Shown piece after piece: positions 8,714 to 19,243 of a DNA stretch of 27,431 bases. This stretch comes from a virus, in the IMG/VR virus record IMGVR_UViG_3300022907_000076, positions 1-27,431 of that record, one strand, 5' to 3'. Below the pieces are notes generated by a model. The model did no database searches and had not been told where the DNA came from. It saw only the letters and a list, made by a program, of their open reading frames with translations. Position 1 is the first letter of the stretch. Every line of letters starts with the position of its first letter. Position numbers and translations under genes: made by a program.

Positions 8714-10158
8714 ATCATTCAATCCTAAAGGTTGACTGCGATAGAGGCGTAGGAGCAGAACTTAGAGAATTCTTTTCTTTCTATGTGCCTGGTTATAAGT
8801 TTATGCCGGCATATCGCAATAGGTTGTGGGACGGTAAAATAAGATTATATAATCAAATTACTGGTGAAATATCTGCAGGACTATTTCCACAAATACTTTC
8901 CTTTGCTGAAAGCAGAGAATACGAAATTGATATAGAAGAATCAGAATACGGTAGTCCTAATGAAGGTAATAAAATTAATCCGGATTTTATGATGAAATTT
9001 ATTGATGCGTTAAATTTACCTTTTAAAATAAGAGATTATCAATTTGATGCAGTATGCACAGGAATACAAAGAAAGAATGCTATTCTTTTATCACCAACAG
9101 GTTCTGGCAAATCATTAATAATATATGTTCTTATGAGATACTTACTATCATCTTTCGAAAAAGATGTTCTTATAATAGTACCAACTACTTCTTTAGTTGA
9201 ACAAATGTATAATGATTTTAAAACTTATGGTTATGATGTAGAAAAAAATTGTCATAGAATATATTCAGGTAAAGATAAAAATACAACTAAGAGAGTTATT
9301 ATTAGCACATGGCAATCTATATACAGATTTCAGCACGATTGGTTTCATCGGTTTGGTAACGTGTTTGGAGATGAGTGTCATGGATTTAAATCAAAATCAT
9401 TAACAACGATAATGAATAAATGTACTGAAGCTGAATATAGATTTGGCACAACAGGAACGTTAGATGGTGCACTTACACACGAGTTAGTATTACAAGGATT
9501 GTTTGGAAAAGTTTATAGAGTTACAAGCACAAGAGCTTTACAAGATAACGATACTCTTGCAAAATTAGCAATTAAAAGAATCATATTAAATTATAGTGAA
9601 CAAGTTAAAAAAGATTTTGGTAAAAAAACATATCAAGAAGAATTAGAATTTATAGTTACAAACAGTAAGCGCAATTCATTTATAAAAAACTTAACACTTG
9701 ACCTTAAAGGTAATACATTGCTTTTATATAACTACGTAGAAAAGCACGGTAAACCTCTTTACAAGTTAATAAAAGATGAAGTAGATGAAACACGCAAAGT
9801 TTTTTTTGTATCTGGCGAAACTGCTGCTACAGATAGAGAAGCTATAAGAGCGATAGTAGAAAAACAGAAAGATTCGATTACGGTGGCATCTCTAGGTACA
9901 TTTAGTACGGGTATAAATATTAGGAATCTACATAATATTGTCTTTGCATCACCGTCTAAATCTCAGATAAGAGTATTGCAAAGCATAGGAAGAGGTTTAA
10001 GAAAAACAGATGATGGCAAAAGTACAGCACTTTATGATATCATTGATGATATAACTTGGAAGTCTAAAAAGAATTTTGGCATATTACATGCTGATGAAAG
10101 ACTTAGAATATACGGAAGAGAAAAATTTAATCATAAAACTTATAGAGTAGATCTATGA
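8686..10158 (+). CDS. uvsW: DNA helicase UvsW
   Basis: This superfamily 2 helicase unwinds branched DNA and R-loops, helping shift replication from origins to recombination intermediates. The 490-residue product is close to T4 UvsW (about 500). An N-terminal DNA-binding region with NRLWDGKIRLYN is followed by Walker A SPTGSGKS (about 136-143), the DECH box (229-232), TGTLDG motif III, and motif VI QSIGRGLRKTDDG. The start at 8686 lies inside uvsY, and this start preserves the conserved VRKLNHSILKVDCD N-terminus. Its stop overlaps the next ATG (ATGA). Confidence 0.96.
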   Translation: METIRVRKLNHSILKVDCDRGVGAELREFFSFYVPGYKFMPAYRNRLWDGKIRLYNQITGEISAGLFPQILSFAESREYEIDIEESEYGSPNEGNKINPDFMMKFIDALNLPFKIRDYQFDAVCTGIQRKNAILLSPTGSGKSLIIYVLMRYLLSSFEKDVLIIVPTTSLVEQMYNDFKTYGYDVEKNCHRIYSGKDKNTTKRVIISTWQSIYRFQHDWFHRFGNVFGDECHGFKSKSLTTIMNKCTEAEYRFGTTGTLDGALTHELVLQGLFGKVYRVTSTRALQDNDTLAKLAIKRIILNYSEQVKKDFGKKTYQEELEFIVTNSKRNSFIKNLTLDLKGNTLLLYNYVEKHGKPLYKLIKDEVDETRKVFFVSGETAATDREAIRAIVEKQKDSITVASLGTFSTGINIRNLHNIVFASPSKSQIRVLQSIGRGLRKTDDGKSTALYDIIDDITWKSKKNFGILHADERLRIYGREKFNHKTYRVDL

Positions 10159-10643
10159 CTATAAAACAATTTAAACTTACTAATAATGATGAAATAATAT
10201 GTGAAGTTGTTGAATGGGATACCGGTGATGAATCCGGCGACGTTCTTATAAAAAAGGCTTTAAAGGTTGTTTCAGTTGAAGACTATCAAAGAGGTTGGAG
10301 ATTCTTTGCTTTTAGACCATGGATGTCATTTCAAGATGATCCGGAATCTATGCAAGCTTTAAATTCTTCTCATATAATTGTAACTACGATTCCATCTAAA
10401 AATATATTAAAACATTATAAAAGATGTTTAAATAGTATAACTAAGGAATCTAAAAACAGTGGTATGGGAAAAAAAATATATGCTAATTTAGATGAAATAC
10501 AAAATGAATTAAGAGATTTGACAGACGATGAGATGGATGACTTTTTAATTAGAAAATACGGTGCAGTTGAAGAAGATTATGTTTCAGATTCTGATGATAG
10601 TAATAAAATAATTAAATTTAAACCTAAAAGTACTTTCCATTAA
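10155..10643 (+). CDS. Conserved hypothetical protein downstream of uvsW
   Basis: This 162-residue protein is translationally coupled to uvsW through an ATGA overlap. The N-terminal half (IKQFKLTNNDEIICEVVEWD, then VLIKKALKVVSVE) has the short-strand pattern of an Sm/LSm-like barrel. This is suggestive only. The middle WRFFAFRPWMSFQDDPESM segment is aromatic rich, and the C-terminus is acidic then basic (IIKFKPKSTFH). Similar genes sit between uvsW and gene 55 in marine T4-like phages. I cannot assign a function. Placement suggests a role with replication/recombination or mRNA. Confidence 0.85.
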   Translation: MTIKQFKLTNNDEIICEVVEWDTGDESGDVLIKKALKVVSVEDYQRGWRFFAFRPWMSFQDDPESMQALNSSHIIVTTIPSKNILKHYKRCLNSITKESKNSGMGKKIYANLDEIQNELRDLTDDEMDDFLIRKYGAVEEDYVSDSDDSNKIIKFKPKSTFH

Positions 10644-11315: not shown

Positions 11316-11897
11316 ATGACACGTAAAAAAAGTATACATTATGTCAATAATTCTGAATTCTCCACTGCTGTAGTTGAATATGTTAAGAAAGCAAATGAAG
11401 CCAGAGAAAATGACAAAAAGATTCCTACAGTACCAGATTATATAGCTCAATGTTTTCTTAGAATAGCAGAAGGTTTATCACACAAAGCAAACTTTATAAG
11501 ATATACGTATAGAGAAGAAATGGTAATGGATGCAGTTGAAAATTGTTTAAAGGCAATTGGAAACTATAATTTAGAAGCAGCAACAAGAACTGGTAAACCA
11601 AATGCTTTTGCATATTTTACACAAATTACTTGGTACGCATTCTTAAGAAGAATAACAAAAGAAAAAAAACAACAAGAAATAAAAATGAAGTACTTAACTA
11701 AATCTGGTATTGATAGCTTTATTGATGTAGGAACAGAAGGAGTAGCTACTGATACAGCTACACATTTTGTAGATACATTAAGGGACAGAATTCAAAGAGT
11801 GCGAAGTACAGATGAAGAGATAAAAGAAATAGTTAAAAAAGAAAAAAAGAAACGTAAAGTTAAAATAGCGGATTCAGATTTAAGCGAGTTTATGTAA
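11316..11897 (+). CDS. gp55: Late-transcription sigma factor gp55
   Basis: This divergent sigma factor directs host RNA polymerase to TATAAATA late promoters, coupled to the gp45 clamp in T4. The 193-residue product (T4 gp55 has 185) includes VPDYIAQCFLRIAEGLSHKA, MVMDAVENCLKAIGNYN (sigma region 2-like core contact), and PNAFAYFTQITWYAFLRRIT, which corresponds to the -10-recognising region. A basic C-terminal tail (KKEKKKRKVK) precedes a short end segment, LSEFM; in T4 the end of gp55 contacts the sliding clamp. It is driven by its own early-type promoter. The stop overlaps gp47 (TAATG). Four TATAAATA sites here are its predicted targets. Confidence 0.94.
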   Translation: MTRKKSIHYVNNSEFSTAVVEYVKKANEARENDKKIPTVPDYIAQCFLRIAEGLSHKANFIRYTYREEMVMDAVENCLKAIGNYNLEAATRTGKPNAFAYFTQITWYAFLRRITKEKKQQEIKMKYLTKSGIDSFIDVGTEGVATDTATHFVDTLRDRIQRVRSTDEEIKEIVKKEKKKRKVKIADSDLSEFM

Positions 11898-14716: not shown

Positions 14717-15304
14717 ATGCAAGAAATGTATCAATTAAATCCGCGTGAAACATATCTTCAACCATTTTTAAAGTTACAAGAATGGGGACTTACTCAACAA
14801 ATGATTGACACTATTAAAAATTCAATGAAAGTTAGTCCTGCAGGATTTTATGGAAGTGATAATAAAGATAGTAACTTAATTCGCAGCACAGATGTTGATT
14901 GGATTGATTTTTATATGCATCAAGAATTTTATTCAGCGCTTAATAATGTTATTCATCGTGCAAATAATGAATTATTTAAATATGCAATTACACACTTAGA
15001 ACCTTGTCAATATGGTGTTTATGCTGCTGACAAAAGTGGACATTATGACACGCACACAGACGGTGATTTTAAAGGACAATTTGGATATGTTAGAAAAATA
15101 TCATTTAGCATTCTTATTAGTGATCCAAAAGATTTTGAAGGTGGTGAATTGTTGTTATTACCACACTTTGAAGGAATAAAAACAAATTTACAAAAAAATG
15201 AAATTTGTTTTTTTCCAAGCTGGTTACCACATAAAGTAACTCCTGTTACTAAAGGTAGCCGTACAAGTATTGTAGGCTGGATACAAGGTCCAGATTTTGT
15301 ATAA
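14717..15304 (+). CDS. 2-oxoglutarate/Fe(II)-dependent oxygenase
   Basis: This 195-residue protein is of the prolyl-hydroxylase (PKHD-like) type, which uses Fe(II) and 2-oxoglutarate to hydroxylate a protein or small molecule. Visible iron ligands are the His113-X-Asp115 pair in YDTHTDGDF and distal His172 in WLPHKVTPV. Arg182 in GSRTSIVGW is the expected 2-oxoglutarate anchor. EGGELLLLP is also a family motif. Such genes are common in marine T4-like phages, and the substrate is unknown. Being first in the clamp operon, it would be made early. AAAGGACTCT upstream is a plausible ribosome-binding site. Confidence 0.88.
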   Translation: MQEMYQLNPRETYLQPFLKLQEWGLTQQMIDTIKNSMKVSPAGFYGSDNKDSNLIRSTDVDWIDFYMHQEFYSALNNVIHRANNELFKYAITHLEPCQYGVYAADKSGHYDTHTDGDFKGQFGYVRKISFSILISDPKDFEGGELLLLPHFEGIKTNLQKNEICFFPSWLPHKVTPVTKGSRTSIVGWIQGPDFV

Positions 15305-17793: not shown

Positions 17794-18167
17794 ATCCCTT
17801 TGAATATTGTAATGCTATAAATTACACTAAGAAAAATATTATGATAGATGATATCACAGAAAAAGCATACTCATCTTACATGGTAAATCGACAGTTGTCT
17901 TACTTTCCAGATACTGTTTTAGCTGCAAATGAAATGAACCGTAATCATCATATTGATAACCGCCTTCAATTTGATTTTTTTATAAATATAATTAGAAAGC
18001 GTAAAAGGTTTTCTAAATGGTTCAAACCTGAACAAATTAGTGATTTGGATGTAGTTAAACAGTATTATGGCTATAGTAATGAAAAAGCCCGCCAAGTTTT
18101 AACACTCCTATCCACTGATAATATAAACGAATTGAAAAACAAGGTGGCTAAAGGTGGAAGAAAATAA
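17790..18167 (+). CDS. gp62: Clamp loader small subunit gp62
   Basis: This is the non-ATPase subunit of the gp44/62 clamp loader. At 125 residues it is clearly shorter than T4 gp62 (187), as in other marine T4-like phages. Recognisable features are NPFEYCNAINYTKKNIM near the start, a YMVNRQLSYFPDTVLAANEM segment and an RKRKRFSKWFKPE basic patch. The C-terminal helix YYGYSNEKARQVLTLLSTD then follows. It is coupled upstream by ATGA and overlaps regA by 14 nt at its 3' end. Confidence 0.92.
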   Translation: MNPFEYCNAINYTKKNIMIDDITEKAYSSYMVNRQLSYFPDTVLAANEMNRNHHIDNRLQFDFFINIIRKRKRFSKWFKPEQISDLDVVKQYYGYSNEKARQVLTLLSTDNINELKNKVAKGGRK

Positions 18168-18576
18168 TATCGTAGAATGGAACCCAGCAAATATGCTAGA
18201 GGTTACACTTAATGAGCCGGACGATTTTCTTAAGATCAAAGAAACACTTACTCGTATAGGTGTGGCATCACGTAAAGATAATAAGTTATATCAATCATGC
18301 CATATACTACACAAACAAGGAAGATATTTTATTGTACATTTTAAAGAACTCTTTTTATTAGATGGTAAAAAATCTAATCTTGAAGAGAATGATGTGGGGC
18401 GTAGAAACACTATAGCAACACTTATGAGCGATTGGGGATTATTAACAGTAGAAAATAAAGAACAACTACAACCAATAGCACCTTTAAGACAAATTAAAAT
18501 AATTTCTTTTAAGGATAAAGATCAATGGGAATTATGTCCGAAATACAATATTGGTAATGGAACAAAACAAAATTAA
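18154..18576 (+). CDS. regA: Translational repressor RegA
   Basis: This RNA-binding protein represses translation of early phage mRNAs, in T4 including its own and clamp/clamp-loader messages, by occupying start regions. The family core is obvious: EPDDFLKIKETLTRIGVASR, LYQSCHILHKQGRYFIVHFK and GRRNTIATLMSDWGLL. The chosen start is GTG at 18154 with AAGGTGG at 18141-18147. The in-frame ATG at 18193 (MLEVTL) corresponds better to the T4 N-terminus but lacks a ribosome-binding site. At 140 residues from the GTG, it exceeds T4 (122). Confidence 0.94.
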   Translation: MEENNIVEWNPANMLEVTLNEPDDFLKIKETLTRIGVASRKDNKLYQSCHILHKQGRYFIVHFKELFLLDGKKSNLEENDVGRRNTIATLMSDWGLLTVENKEQLQPIAPLRQIKIISFKDKDQWELCPKYNIGNGTKQN

Positions 18577-18739: not shown

Positions 18740-18779
18740 AGCTATGTACTTTTGAAAAAAAAGTATTATATATATTATA

Positions 18780-18835
18780 GGATGCCGAATGGTTCGGGTC
18801 CGTACAACAACCTTGCTTAACAGGAGGATACTATG
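18780..18835 (+). promoter_or_regulatory. ROSE-like RNA thermometer in the hsp20 leader
   Basis: The leader can fold into two hairpins. Hairpin I spans 18780-18801: GGAT pairs with GTCC around CCGAA/TTCGG with a TGG loop and one bulged G. Hairpin II spans 18812-18827 and pairs CTTGCT-type bases with the Shine-Dalgarno AGGAGG (18822-18827). In it U17-A22, C16-G23, G15 opposite G24, U14-A25, U13-G26 and C12-G27 enclose a UAAC loop (last two digits of 188xx). The anti-SD strand UUGCU with a G opposite a G matches the U(U/C)GCU signature of ROSE thermometers, which control small heat-shock genes. Folding is by hand only. Confidence 0.62.
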
Positions 18836-19243
18836 ACTGGAAACTTTGTTTTCCCAAGGAACGCTTTTTTAGGTTTTGATCACATTTTCGATGCATTGCA
18901 AGATATACATACGCATGCAAACGATGGATACCCACCACACAATGTCGTAAGAGAAGAAGATAACAAATATGTTATTGAAATGGCTGTAGCCGGCTTCAAG
19001 AAAAAAGACATTGAAATTAAGGTGAAGGAACATATCCTTACCATCGAAGGAAATAGAGATAAACGTAGAGAAGCAGATGCTTATGTACACAAAGGAATAA
19101 GTGCACGTAAGTTTAACAAATCATTCAGACTGTCGGAATATACCGAAGTAACTGGTGCAGATCTAACGGATGGAATACTAACTGTCAATTTAGAAGTGGT
19201 TCTACCGAAAGAAAAGCAGCCTCGTACAATTAACATAACGTAA
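18833..19243 (+). CDS. hsp20: Small heat shock protein Hsp20 (alpha-crystallin domain)
   Basis: This ATP-independent holdase chaperone binds unfolding proteins in the cytoplasm. The 136-residue product has a short N-terminal arm, then an alpha-crystallin domain from about residue 42. Hallmarks are YVIEMAVAGFKKKDIEIKV, ILTIEGNRD, the SFRLSEYTEV segment and GILTVNLEVVLP. It ends with an Ile-Asn-Ile (I-X-I) anchor motif used in oligomerisation. The start has a strong AGGAGG that is predicted to be masked by the upstream RNA hairpin. Hsp20 genes occur in many marine T4-like phages and may support capsid assembly or host proteostasis. Confidence 0.95.
   Translation: MTGNFVFPRNAFLGFDHIFDALQDIHTHANDGYPPHNVVREEDNKYVIEMAVAGFKKKDIEIKVKEHILTIEGNRDKRREADAYVHKGISARKFNKSFRLSEYTEVTGADLTDGILTVNLEVVLPKEKQPRTINIT

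Follow-up and report, generated by a model that had tools for sequence, protein, structure and literature searches.

The hsp20 gene in a 27,431-base IMG/VR virus record, analyzed here in full and called the window below, is preceded by a short ROSE-type RNA leader. We give a probability of roughly 0.8 to the reading that this leader hides the Shine-Dalgarno (SD) sequence of hsp20 and opens with warming and/or folding stress; the response to temperature is the part that we infer. We are close to certain that the leader is a ROSE-type element occluding the SD, and we consider it somewhat better than an even bet that temperature is its main physiological signal. The leader sits in the 5′ UTR of a small heat shock gene, identified as Hsp20 by Pfam and PHROGs, whose ATG (18833-18835) follows the SD at a spacing of 5 nt (Table 1). 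It has two hairpins, and the anti-SD sequence UUGCU lies in the 3′-most of them, facing the SD. The first-pass annotation had placed hairpin 1 at 18780-18801 and had set UUGCU (18813-18817) opposite AGGAGG (18822-18827) across a 4-nt loop, and we found both in the sequence exactly there. Its reading of the leader as ROSE-type is supported as well, by a subthreshold ROSE_3 match and by abundant compensatory changes in related phages.

Table 1. Features of the window that bear on the hsp20 leader
Feature	Position	Strand	Basis or remark
Phage late sigma factor, gp55-like	11316..11897	+	PHROG 234, E 3.2e-52
regA translational repressor	18154..18576	+	Pfam PF01818, E 2.9e-44; PHROG 242
-35-like hexamer TGTACT	18745..18750	+	16 nt ahead of next box; consensus resemblance only
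Promoter-like box TATATATA, sigma70 -10-like or T4-late-like	18767..18774	+	Ends 5 nt ahead of hairpin 1; consensus resemblance
Hairpin 1, GGATGCCGAATGGTTCGGGTCC	18780..18801	+	GGAU-G-CCGAA / UGG loop / UUCGG-GUCC; conserved bulged G at 18784
Anti-SD arm of hairpin 2, CCUUGCU	18811..18817	+	ROSE signature UUGCU at 18813-18817; bulged G at 18815
Hairpin 2 loop UAAC, 4 nt	18818..18821	+	Sequence and folds
SD AGGAGG, 3′ arm of hairpin 2	18822..18827	+	Sequence
hsp20, IbpA-type small heat shock protein, 136 aa	18833..19243	+	Pfam PF00011, E 1.1e-21; PHROG 432, E 1.1e-37

Among the 4,227 families in Rfam, ROSE_3 (RF02523) ranked first at 18776-18838, matching over its full model length with 27.2 bits and an E value of 9e-4; its gathering score is 43. 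The search with Rfam ROSE models that the first-pass annotation had proposed thus gave a divided answer: ROSE_3 is the best family at the exact site, but its score lies below the cut-off. No family reached the gathering score anywhere in the window. Other phages also gave subthreshold ROSE_3 matches, including Melnitz-3 (34.1 bits), S-N03 (31.5 bits), MED4-213 (29.2 bits), C48C1, and loci L064 and L077, and none of the phage leaders tested reached the gathering score. ROSE_2 found a single weak match among the phage leaders, that of S-N03. The Rfam ROSE cut-offs are narrow, since a bacterial hsp20 leader from the gammaproteobacterium Pantoea also falls below the one for ROSE_2 (45.5 versus 65).

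We gathered 80 related viral loci for comparison and followed covariation in 32 related phage leaders, the window included, aligned from sequence only. Paired cells made up 93.9% (shuffled, 77.8 ± 1.1), 63 cells were changed on both sides (shuffled, 17.4), and covariation was 0.459 (shuffled, 0.171; 0/500). When the partner was slid by one column in this alignment, pairing fell to 57% or less. The first-pass annotation had pointed to covariation in related phages as a check, and compensatory changes are indeed abundant there, far above both the shuffled and the slid controls. The stems of related leaders vary on both sides, and the loop-proximal core is constant. Most pairs of hairpin 1 show compensatory changes, and all four Watson-Crick combinations occur at outer pairs 3 and 4; among 77 distinct hairpins, pair 3 is GC in 31, AU in 15, UA in 13, and CG in 11. 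We also compared hairpin 1 with chimeras whose 5′ and 3′ halves come from different leaders (77 distinct arm pairs). At least four contiguous outer pairs form in 90% of the real hairpins and in 24% of the chimeras. The closing pair of hairpin 2 switches from U-A to A-U where the SD changes from AGGAGG to UGGAGG (L060, L064-L067, and L077-L080). A model-guided alignment of 74 matches, of a kind that leans towards its own structure, gave the same covariation picture. Judged by this comparison, compensatory change has preserved both helices, which indicates that the structure is under selection.

The first-pass annotation had also described a G opposite a G in hairpin 2. That UUGCU faces the SD holds, but the data favor a bulged G at 18815 over a G-G opposition. 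In the bulged-G register, C-U-Y-[G]-C-U against A-G-G-A-G, the Y of UYGCU pairs with the third SD base, a G, in 104 of 104 distinct hairpin-2 sequences; the G-opposite-G register pairs the Y position in just 51 of them. Since the bulged-G register sets Y opposite an SD G, Y may be U or C. In the window, the predicted pairs in this register are C18811-G18827, C18812-G18826, U18813-A18825, U18814-G18824, C18816-G18823, and U18817-A18822, with G18815 bulged. When the window sequence is considered by itself, the energy gap between the two registers is under 0.5 kcal/mol (ViennaRNA). The corresponding G makes a G-G contact in solved bacterial ROSE hairpins. Given this contact and the small energy gap, the two descriptions are not strictly exclusive. 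Both hairpins share a local motif, consisting of Y, a bulged G (18784 and 18815), and C opposite purine-G, which is possibly a paired recognition site; the G of hairpin 1 is invariant.

The leader is widespread among phages. The upstream region was usable at 346 viral hsp20 loci, which reduced to 228 distinct leaders, and U(U/C)GC(U/A) precedes the SD (GGA) in 222 of these. The remaining six are Vibrio phage IBT_VpB-34 and five leaders of one group with UGUCU. In this deep-branching group (L111-L118), UGUCU replaces U(U/C)GCU, hairpin 1 and the overall form are kept, and members still match the phage covariance model. By eye, we recognized the leader form in C48C1, Pelagibacter phages HTVC115P, HTVC103P, HTVC008M, and Mosig, Methylophilales phage Melnitz-3, Sinorhizobium phage Phosso, Agrobacterium phage Atu_ph07, Prochlorococcus phage P-SSM3, Synechococcus phage S-PM2, ten more cyanophages, and, with UUGCG, the Pseudomonas jumbo phage Callisto. 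Each of 16 complete phage genomes has the motif T[TC]GCT-N2-10-AGGAG where hsp20 starts, and about 82 further places in those genomes (approximately 2.7 Mb, both strands) carry it. The leader evidence touches annotation too: in S-CAM3 (L129), the annotated hsp20 start at 376 lies 75 nt inside the frame, and the leader points to 301.

A first covariance model (R1), built from 32 related leaders with the window's among them, scored the hsp20 leader at 57.9 bits in the window; the runner-up, at 10153-10201 with 13.3 bits, was taken as chance. Across 97 loci, 72 of 74 R1 matches end at the hsp20 start. With a second model (R2), the hsp20 leader was the top match in each of 15 complete phage genomes, of which about 10 lay outside its training set, and there were three weaker extra matches. 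These genomes were mostly of cyanophages, plus phages of Pelagibacter. One extra match, in phage Mosig, adjoins tail-sheath and terminase genes. The Callisto leader, absent from R2 training, matched with 34.8 bits and an E value of 3e-6. Callisto (L139) is a jumbo phage of another family and has clpS beside hsp20. Both models also detect bacterial ROSE leaders of hsp20, including a P. putida leader that Rfam recognizes as ROSE_3. Because ROSE_3 matches phages and our models match bacteria, phage and bacterial elements recognize each other both ways. A ROSE leader on hsp20 appears to be the rule in related marine phages.

Most phage leaders carry a promoter-like box upstream of hairpin 1 (TATAAATA, NTAAATA, TATAAT, or TATATATA), usually ending 2 to 6 nt before it. 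In part of the window clade, one of the hexamers TGTACT, TTTACA/TTTACT, or TTGACT also lies 16 nt ahead of the box, as in the window, and other members lack these hexamers. From a box ending this close upstream, transcription would probably begin at hairpin 1, at about 18779-18782 in the window, and the leader would then consist of the two hairpins alone.

The capsid protein of the window most resembles those of T4-like marine phages, namely C48C1 (67%), Melnitz (62%), and HTVC008M (62%); these nearest named phages are classified in Kyanoviridae. The gene order is regA, a small ORF, and hsp20; regA neighbors hsp20 in several cyanophages too and lies near it in C48C1. Elsewhere, the window carries a gene with an iron-sulfur cluster biosynthesis domain (PF01521, 21336-21641) and a 2OG-Fe(II) oxygenase gene (14717-15304). 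The top bacterial match to the window Hsp20 is only about 43% identical. Hsp20 proteins that are 65 to 66% identical, with a matching leader, occur on short contigs (L140 and L141) from Bacteroidetes and Neomarinimicrobiota metagenome-assembled genomes (MAGs), probably phage DNA binned into MAGs. We dropped host assignment by Hsp20 likeness, given this low bacterial best match and the phage-like look of those contigs. The description of a "host-type" riboregulator in the first-pass annotation is not supported. Since the element spans a whole phage group, it seems to be a cassette that phages have carried for long, not one borrowed recently.

How would such a leader act? Thermometer action has been proven for short bacterial ROSE elements built from two hairpins; in Pseudomonas, translation is inhibited when cool, and warming opens hairpin 2 as hairpin 1 stays folded (PMC3669281). 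Comparison across phages shows the SD enclosed by hairpin 2, an imperfect helix interrupted by a bulged G, and hsp20 accompanied by the element in many of them. The phage leader has the parts for the same action, by which repression and its relief through warming would follow the Pseudomonas pattern. A phage-late or sigma70-like promoter would start the transcript at hairpin 1 or slightly upstream of it. As long as the temperature is normal, hairpin 2 would deny ribosomes access, and little Hsp20 would be produced. Upon warming or proteotoxic stress, hairpin 2 would open, with hairpin 1 remaining folded as a scaffold, and the phage chaperone would be produced on demand.

Folding predictions neither support nor exclude thermometer action. 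Predicted SD unpairing in the window leader rises gradually, from a mean of 0.15 to 0.33 across 5 to 45°C (ViennaRNA), and the opening predicted for an Rfam-recognized bacterial ROSE_3 leader and for E. coli ibpA is likewise gradual. Opening energies are comparable or higher at some other genes in the window, so that the hsp20 leader does not stand out by thermodynamics alone. We dropped temperature folding as a test, since the model predicts much the same response for ordinary leaders as for the bacterial ROSE leader. When 30 nt of coding sequence are added, CCUUG is predicted to pair with CAAGG in a competing fold, which only 13 of 52 related leaders could form.

The best-surviving alternative is autorepression, a real possibility to which we give clearly less weight: phage Hsp20 would bind its own leader, misfolded protein in infection would titrate it off, and temperature would be secondary. 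In E. coli, IbpA acts on its own 5′ UTR to repress its translation, and this requires Arg93, for which Lys is no substitute (PMC10474464). Heat leaves hairpin 1 unaffected in Pseudomonas (PMC3669281), yet this hairpin is strictly conserved, which suggests a binding partner. The equivalent Arg is present in the window Hsp20 (GISARKF) and in 216 of 233 distinct Hsp20 proteins that go with a ROSE signature, and the protein of the ROSE-less Vibrio phage IBT_VpB-34 lacks it. However, this Arg is common in this class of bacterial small heat shock proteins anyway. Moreover, 17 ROSE-bearing phage proteins have Lys there, which fails in E. coli (PMC10474464). Loci with Lys-type Hsp20 and a retained ROSE leader are L061, L062, L068-L070, L072, L074, L076, L083, and several Melnitz-type loci. 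We consider it doubtful that marine-phage ROSE is mainly a folding-load sensor of infection, with oligomeric Hsp20 sitting on the motif shared by both hairpins until aggregates titrate it.

It is unlikely that the hairpins are a fixed attenuator that merely sets a low translation rate or protects the mRNA 5′ end, with no sensing. Hairpin 1 does lie at the likely 5′ end, where stabilizing hairpins often sit, and the predicted thermal response is shallow. But such a device has no need for the exact U(U/C)GCU and bulged G that are kept in 222 of 228 leaders while hairpin-1 stems drift. We regard a binding site for another phage protein, such as RegA, as very improbable: regA is a near neighbor of hsp20 in the window and several cyanophages, but the element is retained where hsp20 lies elsewhere (HTVC115P, HTVC008M, and Melnitz) and in jumbo phages, and it resembles bacterial ROSE. 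Chance likeness around a strong SD is already refuted by the covariation, universality, and hsp20 association, even though the SD-complement motif by itself turns up by chance in phage genomes at a rate of about one per 66 kb of strand.

The closest known relative of the phage leaders is the Pseudomonas ibpA short ROSE (RF02523; PMC3669281), which likewise has only two hairpins, U(U/C)GCU against the SD, a bulged G and an AUGCC/GGGU core in hairpin 1, and a gene for a small heat shock protein directly downstream. The phage leaders differ in their putative phage-late or sigma70-like boxes in place of sigma32, in their scores of 27 to 34 bits, under the cut-off of 43, and in a wider range of sequence that includes UUGCA/UGGAGG and UGUCU. 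ROSE_2 (RF01832, enterobacterial ibpA/ibpB) and rhizobial ROSE (RF00435) share the anti-SD signature and gene class, but they usually have more hairpins and a longer leader than the approximately 55 nt of the phage leaders. E. coli IbpA autoregulation (PMC10474464) also combines a small heat shock protein having a critical Arg with an SD-occluding 5′ UTR, whereas Lys takes the place of this Arg in some ROSE-bearing phages. In cyanobacteria, the phylum that most cyanophages infect, the Synechocystis hsp17 thermometer (PMC4477652) also blocks translation of a small heat shock gene, but it is a single hairpin with a 1x3 bulge, unlike the two-hairpin, ROSE-type cyanophage leaders; a ROSE-like case is known in Anabaena (PMC4166951). 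RNA thermometers occur in phages as well, namely, lambda cIII, the SPbeta blyA fourU, and a sigma70 thermometer in one gut Caudoviricetes phage (PMC11182007 and PMC10586365). These are single cases from other RNA classes and genes, none ROSE-type or chaperone linked, and blyA was counted as only the second phage thermometer (PMC11182007). In the literature that we searched on phage and cyanophage hsp20 and RNA thermometers, we found no report of ROSE in phages. ROSE is already known as a kind of system; its phage-wide occurrence appears to be new.

T4-like cyanomyophages are considered to have hsp20 among their core genes (PMC9004378). Nearly every hsp20 copy examined carries a conserved, covarying ROSE leader, which suggests on-demand production of the protein and offers a handle on its timing. 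The phage leaders also form a large natural alignment of ROSE RNAs. If our reading is true, hundreds of phages, of which many infect cyanobacteria and some infect Pelagibacter, would add to the few known phage thermometers, and phage performance would be tied, testably, to ocean warming or stress.
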